Part shown: in pieces, positions 1,006-8,760 of the stretch
How positions within the stretch are numbered: the first letter of the stretch is position 1
Layout of the letters: each line of letters begins with the position of its first letter
Assembly (NCBI GenBank): GCA_002256005.1
Contig: NKIQ01000023.1
Coordinates: 1 to 55,206 of the forward strand
Length of the DNA stretch: 55,206 nt
Origin: Alphaproteobacteria bacterium PA4
Lineage (GTDB): Bacteria; Pseudomonadota; Alphaproteobacteria; Sphingomonadales; Sphingomonadaceae
Direction: 5' to 3'
Notes under the pieces: model-generated
What the model was told of the DNA's origin: nothing
Databases searched by the model: none
What the model saw: only the letters and a program-made list of their open reading frames with translations
Position numbers and translations under genes: made by a program

Positions 1006-4000
1006 ATGACTGCGACGTCGGGCCATGAACAGCGCGACGGCCGCACGATTGCCGGTCGCGTCACCGCACAGCTGACGCTGGCGATCGGCCTGTTGTTTCT
1101 GGTCGCCACGGTGCTGGTGACGCTCGATATCCGCTATCGCTCCATTGCCAATTCCCAGCGCGCGATCGACGCGGAACAGCGGCAGTTCGCAGCCGGTGAG
1201 GAAGCGCGTTTTGCCAGGATCGCGTCGGTCGAACAGAATGCGCAGACGATCTTTCGCGCCCAGCTCGCCGTGCTGGGCCCCGATGATGACCGCCGTTTCG
1301 ATGCGCTGTTTCCGCTGTCGAAGGATGGCGCGCGGCGCAGTCGCGATGGCCTGTTCACCGGTACCAACGTGCCGGGCATCGGGCTGGTCAACGGGTTCGC
1401 CGCCTTCATGAGCAATGGCGACCGCCTGACGCTCGCCGAGCGTCGCCAGTTGATGGCCGCCTTTCTGACGGTGCGGAGCCTGGGCGCGGGCATCAGGCCG
1501 GAACTCAGCAGTCTCTATTTCTACACGCCGCAGGACCGGTTGATCATCTTTGCGCCGGATCGCCCGGATCGTCTGGAATTCTATCGGCACAAGGCGCCGG
1601 CCAGTTTCAGCTTTCAGAAGGAAGAATTCGCCGACATCGTGCGGCCGGACCGGAATCCGACGCGGGCCCTGCGCTGCACCAGCCTGCAACGTATCGTCTA
1701 TGATCGCAGCGGCCGGACCTGGACGACCGGTTGCATGATGCCCGTCGATCTGGACGGCCGGCATGTCGGCAGTTTTGGCATCAGCCTCTTGCTCGACAGT
1801 CTGTCGACGCCCTTGTCGCTGGGGCGCGGCACGCCGATCCTGGTGTCGCGCGAAGGGCGTCTGATCTATCACCCGCAGTATACGCGTCAGGCCGACACCA
1901 GCACGGCCGGCAATCTGGACCTGACAAAGTCCACGGATCCGCACCTGCGCGCGCTATGGACGTTCTTGCAGGCCCATCGTGATGGCAAGGATTTTGTCGG
2001 CTATGTCGACGGGCTGAATGGTTATGTCGCCCTGGGCGCGGTGAAGACGCCGGGCTGGTATGCCCTCAGCTACATTTCGGCCGCCAAGGTCAATGCGTCC
2101 GCCTCCTATGCCGCGCGCTGGGTCATCCTCGCCGGCGCCGTCATCATGCTGTTGCAGGCGCTGGTGCTGCGCCACGTGCTGCGCCGCCAGGTCGGGGAGC
2201 CGATCAGCCGGTTGACGAGCCGCGCCGAGGCGCTGGCCGACATGTCCACCGACGGCGCCTGGCCGGATGAAGGCGGGTCCCATGCGGTCATGCCGGCCGA
2301 TGGTTCGGAACTAGAACGGCTGGATGCCAGCTTTGCGACAATGGAAAGTCGCGTCATGGCCGAGCGCCGGCGCCTCAAGCGCTCGTTCGATCTGTTTGCC
2401 GCCAGTGTCGGCAATGTCGCGCTGTTCATGCTCGATCGGCATGGCCATGTCCTCAACTGGAATCGCGGCGCCGAGCAGATCACCGGCATCGCCGCCGGTG
2501 ATGCCGTGGCTTCGCATTTCGGCCTGTTCTTTGATGCCGCCGACGTCGCTGCCGGCGTTCCGGACAGGCTGCTGGCCAATGCCGCCGCGGGGCAATTGCG
2601 CGAGGAAACCCGGTTTCAGCATCGCGATGGCCGTGGCTTCATCGCGCATCTGCAGATCGATCCGATCCCCGGCATCGAAGGCGGTGTGACGGGCTATGCC
2701 GTCGTCATGACCGATGTGACGGCGGAACGGCAGCAGGCACGCCAGATCGAGGAAAGTCTGCGCCTGCTGAAAATGGCCGAGGACACGGCCGAGCTCGGCC
2801 ATTGGCGGCACGATCTCTATACCAACACCGTTGACTGGTCGCCATGGATGTACCGGATCTTCGGTGTGCCCGAGGGCAAGGCGCTCGACATCCATTTCGT
2901 CATGAAATGCTATACGCCCGACAGCATCACGCTGATGAAGGACCGGCTGACCGTCGCGCATGAAACCGGCGCGCCCTTTGCCTTCCAGGTCGATGTCGTC
3001 CGCTCGGACGGTGCCATCCGCCATGTCGATATCAAGGGCCAGCCCGAATTCGATGCCACCGGCCGCAATGTCGCCATGGTCGGCGTGCTGCGCGACATCA
3101 CCGATCAGATCGTGGCGCAGGCCGAGCTCATCGAGGCGCGCAATGCCGCCGATGCCGCGGCCCGCGCCCGCACCGAATTCCTGGCGGTGATGAGCCATGA
3201 GATTCGCACGCCGATGTCGGGCATCATCGGCATGCTCGAAACCCTGGATGCGACGATGACCGGATCCGGTCGCGCCACGGCGATTGCCAGCATCCAGCGT
3301 TCGTCGCGCACGCTGATGCGGGTGCTGGACGATGTCCTCGACCATTCGACCATCGAAACGGGTCGTCTCAGCCTCGAAACCATCCCGTTCGATCTCGCTG
3401 AAGTGGTCGAACAGACGGCCGAGCTGTTCCGCGCCAAGGCGGCCGGCAAGGGCATCACGCTCTATTGCAGCGGCGAACGGCCATTGTGGGTTTCCGGCGA
3501 TCCGACCCGCGTGCAGCAGATCATTTCCAATTTCACCAGCAATGCCGTCAAATTCACCTCGGCCGGGCTGATCGAAATGACCTGGCGCTATGCCGCGGGC
3601 ATGTGCCGGATCGAGGTGTCGGATTCCGGCATCGGCATGGACGATGACACCATGTCGCGGCTGTTCACCGCGTTCAGCCAGGCCTCGGCCGCCACCAATC
3701 GCCAGTTCGGCGGCACCGGCCTCGGCCTTGCCATCAGCAAGCGGCTGGCCGAGGCGATGGGCGGCAATGTCGGCGTCAGCAGCCAGCTGGGCCGCGGCAG
3801 CCGTTTCTGGGTGGAACTGCCGCTGGCACCGGCGGCGCCGCTGAAGGCACCGGAGCCGGAGGTGCTGCCGCCGCTGGAAAACAGTCGGGGCGAAGGGCCG
3901 CGCGTGCTGCTGGTCGAAGACAGCGATTCGGTGCGGATCGCCACCGAGGCGCAGCTGGAAGCCCTGGGTTGCCGCGTCGAATCCGTTCAGGATGGCCTGG

Positions 4001-4620
4001 CGGCGGTGGCGGTGCTGGCCCGTGACAGTTTCGATGCCGTGGTCATGGACTGCAACATGCCGGTGCTCGATGGCCCGGCGGCGGCGCGGCTGATCCGGCT
4101 GCTGCCCGGCGGCGGCCCGCCGATCCTGGGGCTGACTGCGCATTCCGACAGTGACTTGCTGGCCAGCCTGGTCGAAGCCGGCATGAACTCTGTCGAGACC
4201 AAGCCGCTGTGGCGACCGGCGCTGCACCGCGCCCTGGCCCCCCTTGTCAGGCAGCCGCCGGTGGCGCCGACCGATACCCGTGCCGCGGCCTATCAAACGC
4301 TGGCGGCCTTTCCGGAATCGGTGCGCGCCATGCTCGCTGAAAGCATCATGCGCGACATGATCCGCCTCGCCGGCGATGTCGGCACGGCCATCGGCAATGG
4401 CCATGGACTCGCCGCCGGGGCTGCCCTGCACGGCCTGCGCGGCGTTGCCGAAACGCTGGGCGCGCGCGACCTGGTGGCGCTGACGAACTTCGGCGAGGCC
4501 GTGCTGTCCGCCGTCGGGCCCGCCCCCTGCCGCTGGCTGGCCGATCTGATTGGTGACAGCGTCGCCGCCACGCTCGCCGCCGCCGGACCGGCCTTTGCCG
4601 CCATCGGCAAGACATTATGA
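1006..4620 (+). CDS. Membrane hybrid sensor histidine kinase (Cache-PAS-PAS-HisKA-HATPase-REC-HPt)
   Basis: A 1204-residue hybrid kinase. Two membrane helices (about 23-42 and 372-390) bracket a roughly 330-residue periplasmic region that looks like a double Cache sensor. A linker leads to two PAS domains (about 461-580 and 587-703). The HisKA domain has FLAVMSHEIRTP with phospho-His731. The ATPase domain is intact: N box NFTSNAVKF (about 842-850), G1 DSGIGMD (about 873) and G2 GGTGLGLAI (about 902). A receiver follows with VVMDCNMP (Asp1015) and Lys1066, then an HPt domain with ALHGLRGVAETLGA (His1142). It can therefore carry out a complete His-Asp-His relay. It overlaps the next kinase by ATGA. 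The ATG at 1006 is preferred over an in-frame TTG at 988. The ligand of the Cache region is unknown. Confidence 0.9.
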   Translation: MTATSGHEQRDGRTIAGRVTAQLTLAIGLLFLVATVLVTLDIRYRSIANSQRAIDAEQRQFAAGEEARFARIASVEQNAQTIFRAQLAVLGPDDDRRFDALFPLSKDGARRSRDGLFTGTNVPGIGLVNGFAAFMSNGDRLTLAERRQLMAAFLTVRSLGAGIRPELSSLYFYTPQDRLIIFAPDRPDRLEFYRHKAPASFSFQKEEFADIVRPDRNPTRALRCTSLQRIVYDRSGRTWTTGCMMPVDLDGRHVGSFGISLLLDSLSTPLSLGRGTPILVSREGRLIYHPQYTRQADTSTAGNLDLTKSTDPHLRALWTFLQAHRDGKDFVGYVDGLNGYVALGAVKTPGWYALSYISAAKVNASASYAARWVILAGAVIMLLQALVLRHVLRRQVGEPISRLTSRAEALADMSTDGAWPDEGGSHAVMPADGSELERLDASFATMESRVMAERRRLKRSFDLFAASVGNVALFMLDRHGHVLNWNRGAEQITGIAAGDAVASHFGLFFDAADVAAGVPDRLLANAAAGQLREETRFQHRDGRGFIAHLQIDPIPGIEGGVTGYAVVMTDVTAERQQARQIEESLRLLKMAEDTAELGHWRHDLYTNTVDWSPWMYRIFGVPEGKALDIHFVMKCYTPDSITLMKDRLTVAHETGAPFAFQVDVVRSDGAIRHVDIKGQPEFDATGRNVAMVGVLRDITDQIVAQAELIEARNAADAAARARTEFLAVMSHEIRTPMSGIIGMLETLDATMTGSGRATAIASIQRSSRTLMRVLDDVLDHSTIETGRLSLETIPFDLAEVVEQTAELFRAKAAGKGITLYCSGERPLWVSGDPTRVQQIISNFTSNAVKFTSAGLIEMTWRYAAGMCRIEVSDSGIGMDDDTMSRLFTAFSQASAATNRQFGGTGLGLAISKRLAEAMGGNVGVSSQLGRGSRFWVELPLAPAAPLKAPEPEVLPPLENSRGEGPRVLLVEDSDSVRIATEAQLEALGCRVESVQDGLAAVAVLARDSFDAVVMDCNMPVLDGPAAARLIRLLPGGGPPILGLTAHSDSDLLASLVEAGMNSVETKPLWRPALHRALAPLVRQPPVAPTDTRAAAYQTLAAFPESVRAMLAESIMRDMIRLAGDVGTAIGNGHGLAAGAALHGLRGVAETLGARDLVALTNFGEAVLSAVGPAPCRWLADLIGDSVAATLAAAGPAFAAIGKTL

Positions 4621-6650
4621 CCACGACCAATTTCGACCATCTGGGCAGCACCGACACCGAAACGCTGGTGGCTGTCTATGAACGCCGCCTGCGCCGTGCC
4701 GAAATGGCGCGCGCCGAGGCAGAGCTGCTGCTGGAGCGCCACAGTCGCGTGCTGGCCCGCAGCAACCGCGAGCTGACGCAGCGCGAAAGCGATCTGGTTG
4801 CCCGGCTGGAACAGGGCAATCGTCACCTGCTGCATGCCCAGCAGACCGCGGCCATCGCCAGTTTCCACATGGACCGCGGGGCGTTGCCCTTCGTGTCCTC
4901 GCAATTCTTCAAGCTGATCGGTTTTGAAGCCAAAGGCGCCTTTGATCCCGAAATCCTGTTGCGGCTGATCCACCCGCTCGATCGGTCGCGGATTGCCGCT
5001 GCCAGCCAGGCGTTTTTTGCCTCGGCGCAACCCGGCCAGGATTATCGCTATGAACATCGCCTGGAGCGCGGCGAGGACGGGCTGCGCTGGCTGCGCTGGC
5101 ATATCCGCATCATGCGCGACGCCGGCGGGCATTTTCAGTCGGTGTTCGGTACGCTGCAGGACATCACCGAGGCCCGCACCACCGATCGTCGCGCCCGCGC
5201 GCTGCAGTTGATCGCCGATCGGCGCACCGCCCAGCTGATGCGCCTGACCGACGATCTGCTGCGTGCCAAGGCCGAGGCCGATGCCGCGCATGGCGCGCAC
5301 AGCCGCTTCCTCGCCATGACCAGTCATGACATCCGCACGCCGCTCAACGGCCTGCTCGGCATGATCGAGATGCTGTCGGCATCGGAATTGCCGCCGATGC
5401 AGCGACGGATGGTCGACATGATGCGCGATGCCGGCGACCAGCTGCGCCTGCTGGTCGGCGACATCATCGACATTGCCGACATGGGCGCCGGCGAGCTGCA
5501 ACTGACGCCGGAGCCGACCCGGCTCGCCAATCTGTTCGATCCGCTGGCAGCCCTGTGGCAATTGCGCCACCCGGGCCATGTCCTGCGCTGGCAGGTCGAT
5601 CCGACCCTGCCGGAACTGCTGCTGCTCGATGGCCGGCGGGTTCGCCAGATGCTGGAAGGGCTGCTCGGCGATTGCGAGGCCGGCCTTGTCGAACTGGCGG
5701 CGACCCGCATGGGCGACATGATGCGGATCAGCCTGACGGCGGAAACGCTGCGCGATGACAGCGAAACCGGCCAGGGTCGCGTCATCGCCCGCCGCATTGC
5801 CAATGCCATGGGCGGGTCGGTTGCGGACGGCACGATGCCGGCCATCAATGTGCCGGTCGTCGCCGCGCCCGATATGGCGATACCGGTGCCCCAGCTGGCC
5901 GAACCCGTGCCGCTGCGCGTCGCCGGCCGCGTCCCGCATGTGCTGATCGCCGAAGATGTCGAAACCAATCGCATCGTGCTCGGCAGCCTGCTCGAACGCA
6001 TGGGGTGCAGCCATGCCTTTGCCGTCGATGGCGCCGTGGCCGTGGCCGCGGTGACAGGTGGCGAATTCGATGCCGTGCTGATGGACGTGATGATGCCCAA
6101 CATGGATGGCGCCGAAGCCACCCAGCGCATCCGCGCCATGGCCGGGCCCAAGGCGCAGATCCCCATCATCGGGGTCACGGCGCATGGCCTGCAGGCCGAG
6201 CGTGACGCCCTGCTCGCCAAGGGCATGAATGTCTGCCTGACCAAGCCGGTCGATACCGCGCAGCTGCGCGAGGCGTTGGTCAGCCTCTGGGCGCGCAGCG
6301 GCGATACGCGCGTCCAGGATTCGCCGCTTGATGAGGTCGTTTTCACGGCGGCCTTCACGGCGCTGCCGCCGCAGCGGCGCCAGGGGCTGCTCGATCAGGC
6401 GCTGGGCGATTGCCGGGCGCAGGCGCAGGCGCTGGTCGCCGCCCATGGCAAGCAGGATGTGACCGCGCGGCGCCGCGCCGCCCACAGTCTGAAGGGGGTG
6501 GCCGGGCATTTCGGCGGCAGCGCCATTCTGGTGGCGCTGGCGGCGCTGACGGATGAATCCGACCCGGCACCGGTTGTCGATGCGGTCAATCGGGTGGAAC
6601 AGGCGGCCAACAGCCTGTTTGCTGAGGCGCGCTTGCATCTCGCGGCCTGA
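4617..6650 (+). CDS. Soluble hybrid histidine kinase with degenerate ATP-binding domain (PAS-HisKA-CA*-REC-HPt)
   Basis: A 677-residue protein without membrane helices. An N-terminal coiled coil (about 20-75) leads to a PAS-like domain (about 76-185), then HisKA with FLAMTSHDIRTP (phospho-His237). The following catalytic domain is short and eroded. Where the N box should be there is LLGDCEAG, with Asp in place of the Mg/ATP-binding Asn; no DxGxG G1 motif is present; the G2 region reads ETGQGRVIARRIANAMGG instead of GTGLGLAI. The receiver (AVLMDVMMPNMDG, Asp490; Lys543) and the HPt (AAHSLKGVAGHFGG, His623) look functional. It probably cannot autophosphorylate in the usual way and may work as a phosphatase, a relay partner or an H-NOX-responsive scaffold. 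It overlaps the upstream kinase by ATGA, so the two are co-translated. The H-NOX gene follows after a 161-base regulatory gap. Confidence 0.85.
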   Translation: MTTTNFDHLGSTDTETLVAVYERRLRRAEMARAEAELLLERHSRVLARSNRELTQRESDLVARLEQGNRHLLHAQQTAAIASFHMDRGALPFVSSQFFKLIGFEAKGAFDPEILLRLIHPLDRSRIAAASQAFFASAQPGQDYRYEHRLERGEDGLRWLRWHIRIMRDAGGHFQSVFGTLQDITEARTTDRRARALQLIADRRTAQLMRLTDDLLRAKAEADAAHGAHSRFLAMTSHDIRTPLNGLLGMIEMLSASELPPMQRRMVDMMRDAGDQLRLLVGDIIDIADMGAGELQLTPEPTRLANLFDPLAALWQLRHPGHVLRWQVDPTLPELLLLDGRRVRQMLEGLLGDCEAGLVELAATRMGDMMRISLTAETLRDDSETGQGRVIARRIANAMGGSVADGTMPAINVPVVAAPDMAIPVPQLAEPVPLRVAGRVPHVLIAEDVETNRIVLGSLLERMGCSHAFAVDGAVAVAAVTGGEFDAVLMDVMMPNMDGAEATQRIRAMAGPKAQIPIIGVTAHGLQAERDALLAKGMNVCLTKPVDTAQLREALVSLWARSGDTRVQDSPLDEVVFTAAFTALPPQRRQGLLDQALGDCRAQAQALVAAHGKQDVTARRRAAHSLKGVAGHFGGSAILVALAALTDESDPAPVVDAVNRVEQAANSLFAEARLHLAA

Positions 6651-6672
6651 TGTCGCGCTTTGCAAAAATTAT

Positions 6673-6685
6673 TTGCATTTTGCAT
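6673..6685. promoter_or_regulatory. LuxO-like operator upstream of H-NOX
   Basis: TTGCATTTTGCAT matches 12 of 13 positions of the vibrio LuxO site TTGCA-WWW-TGCAA. It sits about 100 bases before the expected start of transcription from the sigma-54 promoter at 6761-6776, the normal distance for an enhancer-binding protein. Further half-sites surround it: TTTGC/GCAAA pairs at 6731-6744 and 6720-6753. The LuxO-like regulator at 7357-8760 is the obvious candidate to bind here. Confidence 0.5.
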
Positions 6686-6760
6686 TGAAATCTTCTCAAT
6701 TGGCAAAGCTGAGCGCGTATTTGCCGCGCCTTTGCGTTGGCAAACACGGCAAATGGTTAC

Positions 6761-6776
6761 TGGCATATTTCTTGCA
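6761..6776 (+). promoter_or_regulatory. Sigma-54 (RpoN) promoter of the H-NOX / response-regulator operon
   Basis: TGGCATATTTCTTGCA fits the -24/-12 consensus TGGCAC-N5-TTGCW: GG and GC are exactly 10 bases apart, and TGGCA and TTGCA are both complete. Predicted transcription start is near 6787, giving a leader of about 25 bases before the ATG at 6812. The regulator encoded by this operon carries the GAFTGA loop that contacts sigma-54. Confidence 0.75.
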
Positions 6777-6811
6777 TGGCGAATTGAGAAGTTGTCCATG
6801 GCGAGTAGCAA

Positions 6812-7360
6812 ATGAAGGGGATCGTTTTCACCGAGCTGATGGGATTCCTCGAATCCCAGCTGGGTGTTGTCACGGCTGATCGGATTGTCGGTGCTGCGGC
6901 CTTGCCCAATGACGGTGCCTTTACCTCGGTCGGCAACTATCCCGCCGGCTATGCGCTGAAGATCGTCGAGGCAGCCGCTGCCGAGACCGGCCTGCCGTTC
7001 GAGCGGTTGCTCCAGGATTATGGCAGCTATCTCTACACCAGTCTGGTCGTGTTGTTCCCGGCGATCATTTCCCATTATCGCACCGCCGAAGACATGCTCT
7101 GCCATGTCGCGTCGCACATCCATGAGGAAGTCGTCATTCTCTACCCCGATGCGCGCCCGCCCAGCATCACGGCGACTGCCGATGGCGACCGGCTGCATGT
7201 CCTGTATGAATCGCACCGGCCGCTGGCGCATCTCTGCTTCGGCCTGCTGCGCCAGTGTCTCGTCCATTTCAGCGATCCCCGCGCCATCACCTGGCAGGAC
7301 GGTGGCAGCCTGCATCGCGCCCGCTTCGTGCTGGCCCCGGCCCTGAAGGCCGCGGCATGA
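6812..7360 (+). CDS. hnoX: H-NOX (heme NO-binding) sensor protein
   Basis: A stand-alone 182-residue H-NOX protein, the usual bacterial length. It begins MKGIVFTELMGF, a family hallmark, and keeps the proximal heme ligand in HIHEEVVILYP (His104) and the heme-propionate motif YxSxR as YESHR (Tyr132, Ser134, Arg136). The distal tyrosine used by O2-binding members (Tyr140 of the Thermoanaerobacter protein) aligns with Leu141 here, which predicts selective binding of NO rather than O2. In other bacteria such proteins control an adjacent histidine kinase by binding it. Here two hybrid kinases lie upstream and the response-regulator gene overlaps the stop codon (ATGA). No strong Shine-Dalgarno is visible. 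Expression is probably driven by the sigma-54 promoter just upstream. Confidence 0.92.
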   Translation: MKGIVFTELMGFLESQLGVVTADRIVGAAALPNDGAFTSVGNYPAGYALKIVEAAAAETGLPFERLLQDYGSYLYTSLVVLFPAIISHYRTAEDMLCHVASHIHEEVVILYPDARPPSITATADGDRLHVLYESHRPLAHLCFGLLRQCLVHFSDPRAITWQDGGSLHRARFVLAPALKAAA

Positions 7361-8760
7361 CCGGCAGCGCCCGCGTTCTGATCATCGAGGATGCAGCGTC
7401 GCTGGCCATGAGCTATGCGGCGCAGCTGGAAGCCTCCGGCCATGAAGTGACCATTGCCGCCACCGGTGCCGCGGCGCGCGCCAGGCTGGCCGGCGATGTC
7501 GTTTACGATGTCGTGCTGCTCGATCTGCAATTGCCCGACGCCGACGGACTGGAACTGCTCGCCGAATCGCCCGATCTGGCCAGCAACAGCAGCGTCATCG
7601 TCGTCACCGCCGATGGCTCGATCAACCGCGCCATCGGGGCGATGCGGCTCGGCGCCTATGATTTCCTCGTCAAGCCGCTGGCACCCGAGCGCCTGGCCAC
7701 CAGCGTCCGCAACGCCTTCGAGCGCCGCTCGCTGGCCCAGGAAGTCGTCGCCGTCCGCTCGCTGACCGGGCGCGACCGTTTCCAGGGTTTCATCGGCGCC
7801 TCGCACCTGATGCAGGCCGTCTATCGCGCCATCGAGAATGTCGCGGATTCCAAGGCCACCGTGTTCATCGGCGGCGAAAGCGGCACCGGCAAGGAAGTGG
7901 CGGCGGAAGCCATCCACCGTGCCGGCCGCCGCCGCGAACGCGCCTTTGTCGCGCTCAACTGCGGCGCCATTCCGGAAAACCTGCTGGAATCGGAACTGTT
8001 CGGCCATGTCCGCGGCGCCTTCACCGGTGCCACCGAAAACCGCACCGGCGCGGCGCGCGAGGCCGATGGCGGCACGCTGTTCCTCGATGAAATCTGCGAA
8101 ATGCCGCTGCAATTGCAGGTCAAGCTGCTGCGCTTCCTGCAATCGGGCATGGTCCAGCCGGTCGGCGGCGGCCGTGCCGAGCCGGTCGACGTCCGCATCC
8201 TCTGCGCCACCAACCGCGACCCCGCCCGCGAAGTCGCCGAAGGCCGGCTGCGCGAGGATCTGTTCTATCGCCTTGCCGTCATCCCGCTCGACCTGCCGCC
8301 GCTGCGCGACCGCGGCGACGATATCGTGCTGATCGCCGATGCCTTTCTGCAGCGTTTCGCGTCGGAAGAGGGCAAGGTGTTCGCGCCGCTGTCGCCCGAG
8401 GTCCGCACCCATCTGTTGCGCCACCGCTGGCCGGGCAATGTCCGACAGCTGCAGAATGCCGTGCGCCGCGCCGTGGTCATGGCCACCGGCAATGAACTGT
8501 CGGTCGGCGATTTTCCGCTGGTCGAAGCGCCGCCGGCCAGCGCCGGTCTGGCCGCGAGCAGCGCCGCCCAGGCTGCCGCGCCCACGGCTGTCGATTTCTC
8601 CGGCCTCACGCTCGACATGATCGAGCGGCTGGCCATCGAGGATGCCATCTCCCGCGCCGGTGGCAGCCTGCCCAATGCCGCACGGCAGCTGGGGGTCAGC
8701 CCGTCGACGCTCTATCGCAAGCGCGAACGCTGGCTGGGGGCGGCCGACACCGCGGCTTGA
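7357..8760 (+). CDS. Sigma-54-dependent response regulator, NtrC/LuxO type
   Basis: A 467-residue regulator. The receiver has VVLLDLQLPDADG with phospho-Asp56 and Lys106. The AAA+ domain opens with GFIGASHLMQAVYRAIENVA, very like LuxO, followed by Walker A GESGTGKE (about 173-180), the sigma-54 contact loop GAFTGA (220-225) and Walker B GGTLFLDE. A Fis-type helix-turn-helix ends the protein (AARQLGVSPSTLYRKRE). It should bind upstream operators and activate RpoN-dependent promoters when phosphorylated. Its ATG overlaps the H-NOX stop, so the gas sensor and the transcription factor are made together. The only sigma-54 promoter I found nearby is the one in front of its own operon, which suggests autoregulation. 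The phosphate donor is presumably the HPt of one of the two upstream kinases. Confidence 0.92.
   Translation: MTGSARVLIIEDAASLAMSYAAQLEASGHEVTIAATGAAARARLAGDVVYDVVLLDLQLPDADGLELLAESPDLASNSSVIVVTADGSINRAIGAMRLGAYDFLVKPLAPERLATSVRNAFERRSLAQEVVAVRSLTGRDRFQGFIGASHLMQAVYRAIENVADSKATVFIGGESGTGKEVAAEAIHRAGRRRERAFVALNCGAIPENLLESELFGHVRGAFTGATENRTGAAREADGGTLFLDEICEMPLQLQVKLLRFLQSGMVQPVGGGRAEPVDVRILCATNRDPAREVAEGRLREDLFYRLAVIPLDLPPLRDRGDDIVLIADAFLQRFASEEGKVFAPLSPEVRTHLLRHRWPGNVRQLQNAVRRAVVMATGNELSVGDFPLVEAPPASAGLAASSAAQAAAPTAVDFSGLTLDMIERLAIEDAISRAGGSLPNAARQLGVSPSTLYRKRERWLGAADTAA

Follow-up and report, generated by a model that had tools for sequence, protein, structure and literature searches.

Four consecutive genes on the plus strand of a contig from Alphaproteobacteria bacterium PA4 (NKIQ01000023.1) encode, in this order, a membrane hybrid histidine kinase (HK1), a second hybrid-kinase-like protein (HK2), an H-NOX protein and a LuxO/SypG-type response regulator. 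The whole contig (C45; 55,206 nucleotides, or 55 kb, of a 3.0 Mb genome) was analysed and is called the window below. From domain content, promoter anatomy and comparison with related loci, we consider it fairly probable that these genes encode a split phosphorelay tuned by nitric oxide (NO), which would drive a LuxO-type sigma-54 regulon for the surface polysaccharide/PEP-CTERM matrix. The core of the system is the pair of H-NOX and regulator; the two kinases are linked to it in a minority of loci only. An earlier note on this DNA had described the four genes as one compact module, with ATGA overlaps between genes 1 and 2 and between genes 3 and 4. Both overlaps are present (4617-4620 and 7357-7360), but 161 bp holding a predicted sigma-54 promoter separate HK2 from H-NOX, and the four genes are not evidently a single unit.

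H-NOX, its promoter and the adjacent regulator

Conservation of the gene set was assessed in a family/genus set of loci and in a set of named loci; some genomes belong to both, and genes were counted by tblastn. Of the 24 genus genomes, 9 have H-NOX, as do 47 of the 298 from the family. The gene immediately downstream of it is that of the regulator in 36 of 55 family and genus loci (54 and the window) and, among the named loci, in 55 of 80; L094 of genome G231, whose H-NOX gene has an in-frame split, was counted as adjacent. Within the genus, a LuxO-like regulator (478-532 bits) is encoded by eight of the 24 genomes, each of which also has H-NOX, while the other 16 contain nothing above 356.1 bits; the ninth genome with H-NOX (G018) has a different H-NOX type and no LuxO-like regulator. 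The pair is found in many relatives, as far as the Halomonadaceae. Comparison of neighbourhoods among relatives was the first half of the test by which the earlier note's proposal could fall, and since the H-NOX/regulator neighbourhood is kept there, the proposal survives that half.

The H-NOX protein matches PF07700 with 94.1 bits, against a cut-off of 25.5. In an alignment of 22 such proteins, all taken from LuxO-linked loci, His104, Y132, S134 and R136 are invariant; we assume that His104 serves as the proximal ligand and that the other three serve as the YxSxR motif. Five residues beyond R136, presumably the place of the tyrosine in O2-binding members, the protein has Leu141. It is likely to be of the NO type, as had been noted before. 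A distal-pocket tyrosine is the mark of O2-binding H-NOX proteins (PMC8738867). Other H-NOX proteins of the family (L041, L050-L060 and others) fall into at least two further sequence types, many of them ending in CMHxGDPxC or starting with MYGMIH, and mostly have no LuxO-type promoter.

The predicted promoter ahead of hnoX is the sole sigma-54 site scoring at least 14 on either strand of the window. The LuxO element of Vibrio has been given as TTGCAWWWTGCAA (PMC10162802) and as TTGCA-N3-TGCAA (PMC3352281). Relatives have cleaner hnoX promoters than the window, with commonly two to four LuxO-type sites, mostly 16-23 bp apart, and then the sigma-54 box, which usually lies 50-80 bp (up to 166 bp in halomonads) ahead of the H-NOX start. 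A combined promoter test, requiring a sigma-54 score of at least 12 and at least two LuxO-type sites with at most two mismatches, was passed by 49 of the 55 adjacent named loci versus 4 of the 25 non-adjacent ones (p 2e-10), and by 32 of 36 adjacent loci versus 2 of 19 others in the family/genus set (p 1e-8), both p values being overstated because the loci are related and the two sets share genomes. On shuffled sequence the test gave 0.0. A strict pattern, consisting of a sigma-54 box and TYGCANNNTGCRA within 25-55 bp, was found at 12 sites in 11 of the 298 family genomes, nine of them at H-NOX promoters, with 0 in the reversed control of every genome listed; it misses the window's weaker sites, and of its matches only the one in G221 comes from a genome where H-NOX was not matched, and it stands ahead of a PEP-CTERM-type gene. 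Judged by sequence only, the arrangement is that of LuxO/SypG-type control, with TTGCA-N3-TGCAA elements upstream of predicted sigma-54 promoters.

The regulator combines REC, sigma-54 AAA+ and Fis HTH domains, and its best NCBIfam model is LuxO (NF041946, a Vibrio equivalog) at 516.1 bits, below the curated cut-off of 800; the PrsR model TIGR02915 gives 406.8 bits, below 502.6. LuxO is also its best PDB relative (E 8.5e-117). A tree of 46 sequences, in which one halomonad appears as both L187 and L245, unites the H-NOX-linked regulators in one clade (0.974), joins this clade with gammaproteobacterial LuxO-like proteins (0.999) and sets NtrC, NtrX and PrsR apart. None of the 229 proteins of the gammaproteobacterial draw exceeded the LuxO cut-off, hence the tree contains no certified Vibrio LuxO; it contains no certified SypG either. 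By domains and tree, the regulator belongs to the wider LuxO/SypG-type group. The LuxO-like sigma-54 activator proposed for gene 4 is thereby borne out, and so is the tie between H-NOX and an RpoN-type activator of this kind, given the tree placement and the LuxO-type sites at the H-NOX promoter in most paired relatives. The regulators of Halomonas, Salinicola and Kushneria are placed inside the H-NOX-linked clade, which suggests horizontal transfer of the locus.

Table 1. Features of the locus, in positions of the window.
Feature	Position	Strand	Description	Basis
HK1	1006..4620	+	1204 aa; membrane dCache-PAS-PAS hybrid kinase	Pfam, predicted fold, relatives' motifs
HK1 dCache	about 1123-2115	+	periplasmic, a transmembrane segment on each side	fold model
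HK1 PAS	2416-2724	+		Pfam
HK1 PAS	2830-3087	+		Pfam
HK1 HisKA	3166-3363	+		Pfam
HK1 HATPase_c	3496-3828	+		Pfam
HK1 REC	3904-4236	+		Pfam
HK1 HPt-like tail	about 4318-4575	+		HxxxG motif, no Pfam match
HK2	4617..6650	+	677 aa; predicted kinase-dead phosphotransfer platform	Pfam, alignments, model
HK2 coiled coil	4656-4847	+
HK2 PAS	4890-5153	+
HK2 HisKA/DHp	5298-5492	+	with His237	Pfam
HK2 CA remnant	about 5523-5936	+	degenerate	alignment; no Pfam match
HK2 REC	5940-6278	+	Asp490	Pfam, alignment
HK2 HPt	6387-6554	+	His623	Pfam, alignment
Weak LuxO-type site	6653..6665	.	TCGCGCTTTGCAA	2 mismatches
LuxO-type site	6673..6685	.	TTGCATTTTGCAT	1 mismatch to TTGCA-N3-TGCAA
Sigma-54 (-24/-12) promoter	6761..6776	+	TGGCAT-N5-TTGCA	predicted from sequence
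H-NOX (hnoX)	6812..7360	+	182 aa	Pfam, alignment, PDB relatives
LuxO/SypG-type response regulator	7357..8760	+	467 aa	Pfam, NCBIfam, PDB relative, tree
Regulator REC	7375-7707	+		Pfam, sequence
Regulator sigma-54 AAA+	7792-8289	+	with GAFTGA	Pfam, sequence
Regulator Fis HTH	8608-8733	+	with VSPSTLYRK helix	Pfam, sequence

Immediately upstream of HK1, where the contig ends, lies a SnoaL-like gene (Pfam SnoaL_2, about 277-837). At its upstream end are LuxO-type sites (176-205; TTGCATTGCGCAA at 176 and TTGCACTTTGCCA at 193) without a good sigma-54 box.

The two kinase genes

By its domains, HK1 is built as an active hybrid kinase, with HisKA (57.1 bits), an intact HATPase_c (101.5 bits) and REC (69.2 bits). 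The earlier note had read it as a Cache-PAS-PAS hybrid kinase with HPt. Both PAS domains and the kinase and receiver domains were recovered by Pfam. A model of the N-terminal part (residues 20-400, seven sequences; pLDDT 87) predicts a dCache sensor. Among PDB structures it matches a tandem-PAS/dCache ligand-binding domain best (E 2.0e-9, TM 0.37/0.55), which supports the Cache assignment. HPt found no Pfam match even at E 1, though an HPt-like HxxxG motif lies in the C-terminal tail and is shared by the six relatives outside Qipengyuania. The HK1 of L166, from Qipengyuania, retains HATPase_c and has no REC or HPt by Pfam; that of L167 is alike in the alignment.

Gene 2 had likewise been called a hybrid kinase with HPt. 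Its PAS, HisKA, REC and HPt were all found by Pfam, but no HATPase_c was (cut-off 26.4 bits), and with this apparent loss of the ATPase domain the locus probably does not encode two working kinases. HATPase_c over the cut-off is absent from eight of nine aligned HK2s, the window's included. The HK2s of the window and L135 have a shorter CA remnant and no HATPase_c match, that of L150 has a match below the cut-off (15.5 bits), and in L139, L149, L151, L166 and L167 hardly anything separates the DHp helices from REC, again with no match. All nine retain the histidine of DHp, the aspartate of REC and the histidine of HPt; when seven sequences were aligned, His237, Asp490 and His623 did not vary, and columns 288-442 contained no invariant position. 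By these alignments the nine HK2s are a graded series of ATPase-domain decay, and HK2 is probably not a working kinase. Because the HK1 of Qipengyuania is without REC and HPt, HK1 and HK2 would complement each other there, and the complementary loss in these few sequences is the pattern expected of a two-protein relay.

A tree of 15 kinases, rooted at its midpoint, has the HK2s in one clade (0.976), which groups (0.987) with the full kinases directly after H-NOX in L049, L192, L200 and L209; the HK1s form a clade of their own, apart from the HK2s. Taking this grouping together with the loss of the ATPase domain, we read HK2, from few sequences, as a putative relative of an H-NOX partner kinase that has lost its engine. 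Its N-terminus resembles those of the H-NOX-linked kinases (best E 1.5e-15), a likeness that is not exclusive: between the HK2 and the HK1 of L135 there is likewise a match in the PAS region (E 2.6e-9). In the H-NOX-linked full kinases, no PAS domain was called by Pfam. The structure model of HK2 (pTM 0.33) gave domain-level matches only, the structures of RetS and GacS being among them. RetS, ChpT and Spo0B are kinase-dead or shrunken hybrid kinases in which DHp is kept and the ATP site is degenerate; HK2 differs from them in additionally having REC and HPt and in being linked to H-NOX. It would be an H-NOX-linked protein in which phosphotransfer is seemingly kept and catalysis lost. In Novosphingobium (L192-L195), a tandem H-NOX pair is followed by a hybrid kinase, which in L192 is complete by Pfam.

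Most loci, that of Erythrobacter sp. NAP1 (L176) among them, have H-NOX and regulator without adjoining HK1-HK2, and in the window the sigma-54 promoter splits the two kinase genes from hnoX and the regulator gene. Both observations would suit an arrangement in which HK1 and HK2 are an unrelated pair that serves another regulator, standing beside an autonomous H-NOX-LuxO unit whose partner kinase lies elsewhere. We regard this as unlikely. The order HK1-HK2-H-NOX-regulator recurs in Polymorphobacter-like loci, with all four genes present in Polymorphobacter arshaanensis (L151), and in Qipengyuania flava and Qipengyuania citrea, and three of the four loci whose full kinases group with the HK2s have a LuxO-like regulator within 13 kb.

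Candidate target promoters

A Wza-like gene is divergent to H-NOX in 44 of the 55 adjacent named loci versus none of the 25 others. In L075 its product matches Poly_export at 28.4 bits (cut-off 28), with SLBB nearly passing; beyond it lie the genes for a 477-aa protein without Pfam match and a protein with sub-threshold Wzy_C, and then glycosyltransferases and a flippase. Ahead of the Wza-like gene, many loci have an outward sigma-54-like box, mostly with TTGAA instead of TTGCA. The same gene order, with LuxO-type sites at H-NOX, is found in the Halomonadaceae (L175, L179, L184, L186, L187 and L190, from Salinicola, Halomonas and Kushneria). In G001, a genome of the genus, H-NOX and regulator are 12 kb apart and the Wza-like gene (L281; 48.5% identity, 353 bits) adjoins the regulator; it has one LuxO-type site at no more than one mismatch and three at no more than two.

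In L135/L045, the closest relative, a family-2 glycosyltransferase gene (98.6 bits; 8865-9848 in L135) stands between HK2 and H-NOX. As it is preceded by a sigma-54 site (14.2) and one LuxO-type site with two mismatches, a polysaccharide gene seems to lie inside the H-NOX operon. A Qrr-like small RNA was also considered behind the divergent sigma-54-like promoter, and was rejected: in the 27 stretches that were read, selected for such a box, a lipoprotein gene follows, which is Wza-like where tested.

The window's genome has 18 exact sigma-54 sites (2 in the reversed control), several of them ahead of PEP-CTERM protein genes. Of these 18 promoters, 6 have a LuxO-type site that deviates by one mismatch at most (0.07 expected), versus none of the first 30 in four congeners without the regulator (0.10 expected). 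In the completed sets the counts are 12 of 87 for five genomes with the regulator (0.35 expected) versus 1 of 59 for four without it (0.18 expected; Fisher p 0.015). The 12 include two H-NOX promoters and one Wza-like promoter, without which the comparison stands at 9 of 84 versus 1 of 59 (p 0.047). Promoters with identical upstream 60 bases, or with fewer than 120 bases upstream, were merged or dropped, and the contig-edge promoters C285 and C398 of G016 were left out.

PEP-CTERM genes are predicted targets of PrsR and sigma-54, and carry a 17-nt motif ending in TTTACA (PMC1569441) that agrees with the PrsR-type site used here (TGTCGG, 4-6 bases, TTTACA), which was derived from the congeners' promoters. 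Elsewhere in its sequence the window's genome encodes its own PrsR (672.9 bits, cut-off 502.6) and PrsK (330.1, cut-off 300). LuxO-type sites occur on 6 of 35 PEP-CTERM promoters in genomes with the LuxO-like regulator versus 1 of 24 in those without (p 0.22, not significant by itself), and PrsR-type sites on 14 of 35 versus 20 of 24 (p 0.001). No PEP-CTERM promoter has both (0/35 and 0/24); one non-PEP-CTERM promoter, L110, does. PEP-CTERM genes were recognized by a tail pattern, which missed L100, whose tail is plainly PEP-CTERM. The LuxO-type counts, the drop in PrsR-type sites and the absence of a shared promoter suggest, and do not prove, that the LuxO-type regulator has taken over part of the PEP-CTERM genes. 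L100, L107 and L108 of G000 and L273 of G009 belong to a small family of PEP-CTERM genes, related by eye, with LuxO-type sites at their sigma-54 promoters; several copies are present in the window's genome.

Given that PrsR is the predicted activator of PEP-CTERM genes and that this genome encodes both PrsR and PrsK over their cut-offs, the TTGCA-N3-TGCAA elements might be read by PrsR, or by some other activator, and not by the regulator encoded here. This is very improbable: the two kinds of site never occur together on a PEP-CTERM promoter, the PrsR recognition helix (VSRPTLYD) differs from that of the regulator (SPSTLYRK), and the excess of LuxO-type sites with at most one mismatch is seen where the LuxO-like regulator is present.

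Proposed relay and comparison with known systems

In the relay that we propose, a periplasmic ligand at the dCache domain would induce autophosphorylation of HK1, whose motifs are intact. HK1 would hand its phosphate to HK2, REC first and HPt second. Having apparently lost its ATPase domain, HK2 could not generate phosphate itself; the REC and HPt-like tail of HK1 may take on part of the transfer. From the HPt of HK2 the phosphate would reach the LuxO-like regulator. NO-bound H-NOX may act on HK2, HK1 or both to alter the flux, as the HnoX/HahK precedent and the kinship of HK2 to H-NOX-linked kinases suggest, and by analogy with HnoX of Vibrio fischeri its effect would most likely be a lower flux. 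Going by DNA anatomy, the regulator would act at TTGCA-N3-TGCAA elements upstream of the sigma-54 promoters of its own operon, of the divergent Wza-type gene in relatives and of some PEP-CTERM genes. A more specific account can be offered only tentatively, as possible and not as probable: that an H-NOX partner kinase turned into an engine-less platform, that NO gates the phosphate of the dCache kinase on its way through the receiver and HPt of HK2 and not autophosphorylation, and that the LuxO-type regulator captured PEP-CTERM genes from PrsK/PrsR in some members.

Several findings weigh against the proposed relay and its targets, besides the overstated p values of the promoter test. The window's LuxO-type sites are weak, one having one mismatch and the other two, and some adjacent loci fail the combined test (L135, L136, L142, L150, L152 and L191 of the named set; L042, L043, L045 and L072 of the family set). 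A Wza-like homologue was not found in the window's genome in a search with a relative's protein as query and no positive control, and no polysaccharide operon is adjacent to the window's locus. In six named halomonad loci, the stretch scanned holds no outward sigma-54-like box above 8.9. The enrichment of LuxO-type sites is weak at up to two mismatches (17 of 87 promoters with the regulator versus 8 of 59 without), as is the difference among PEP-CTERM promoters given above. Only nine aligned loci have linked kinases, and one of their HK2s, that of L136, passes the HATPase_c cut-off (36.9 versus 26.4 bits). Finally, the window's HK1 still has REC and the HPt-like tail, so that HK2 may be dispensable as a relay.

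The earlier note had likened the locus to the LuxQ-LuxU-LuxO chain of vibrios. The LuxO-like output of that comparison stands, but the layout appears closest to the RscS-SypF(HPt)-SypG chain of V. fischeri with its HnoX/HahK pair. A quorum relay proper, with an autoinducer as the ligand of HK1 and Qrr-type small RNAs as targets, would share the LuxO-like regulator and the LuxO-type DNA site and would fit the match of HK1 to the Vibrio LuxQ model, yet it is very improbable, since that match (278.6 bits) is far under the cut-off of 1200, covers only the kinase core and REC (residues 695-1078) and is surpassed by TorS, the divergent transcripts of relatives encode a Wza-like protein, and searches confined to the locus and the window, the rest of the genome not being searched, found no separate LuxU HPt gene in the former and, by Rfam, only two tRNAs in the latter.

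In the open-licence literature, we found no description of an H-NOX and LuxO-like module among the matches listed, and no joint treatment of H-NOX with PEP-CTERM. By title, none of the papers on H-NOX and LuxO concerned sphingomonads and none of those on LuxO, alphaproteobacteria and exopolysaccharide concerned the module; for sphingomonad genera together with H-NOX there was none among the matches listed. In sphingomonads, Erythrobacter-type bacteria and Halomonadaceae alike, the comparison of loci finds an operon of H-NOX and a LuxO-type activator next to genes for polysaccharide export, and a DNA element of the Vibrio LuxO type goes with it. It yields a list of candidate target promoters, and NO control of the biofilm matrix becomes a testable theme outside Vibrio.

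Among known systems, PrsK/PrsR (PMC1569441) shares the sigma-54 promoters of PEP-CTERM genes and differs in regulator and site. The H-NOX of Caulobacter crescentus, described in connection with the cell cycle (PMC10746521), is also alphaproteobacterial, and the available part of that paper makes no mention of a LuxO-type module. In Vibrio harveyi and Vibrio parahaemolyticus, H-NOX/HqsK feeds LuxU-LuxO (PMC3759921, PMC6759604; HqsK is named in PMC12369376). H-NOX input, an HPt step, LuxO-type sigma-54 output and the DNA site are common to that system and the one proposed here, whereas the HPt is here fused to HK2, and probably to HK1 too, and the output resembles genes for surface polysaccharide and surface protein.

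The nearest parallel is V. fischeri, in which RscS acts through the HPt of SypF on SypG, which activates polysaccharide genes with sigma-54 and has sites overlapping the LuxO element TTGCAWWWTGCAA, and in which HnoX with NO inhibits HahK (PMC10162802, PMC12369376). There, and as proposed from the DNA also here, a membrane hybrid kinase feeds the HPt of a second hybrid protein and through it a sigma-54 polysaccharide regulator, with H-NOX bringing in NO. Unlike the hnoX-hahK arrangement of V. fischeri, H-NOX and regulator here share an operon behind a LuxO-type sigma-54 promoter; HK2 is apparently without an ATPase domain; control is predicted for PEP-CTERM genes and for Wza-type genes from a different cluster; and the hosts are alphaproteobacteria and halomonads. 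Taken together, the comparison suggests for LuxO/SypG-type regulators a greater age or mobility than would be expected from their quorum role in Vibrio.

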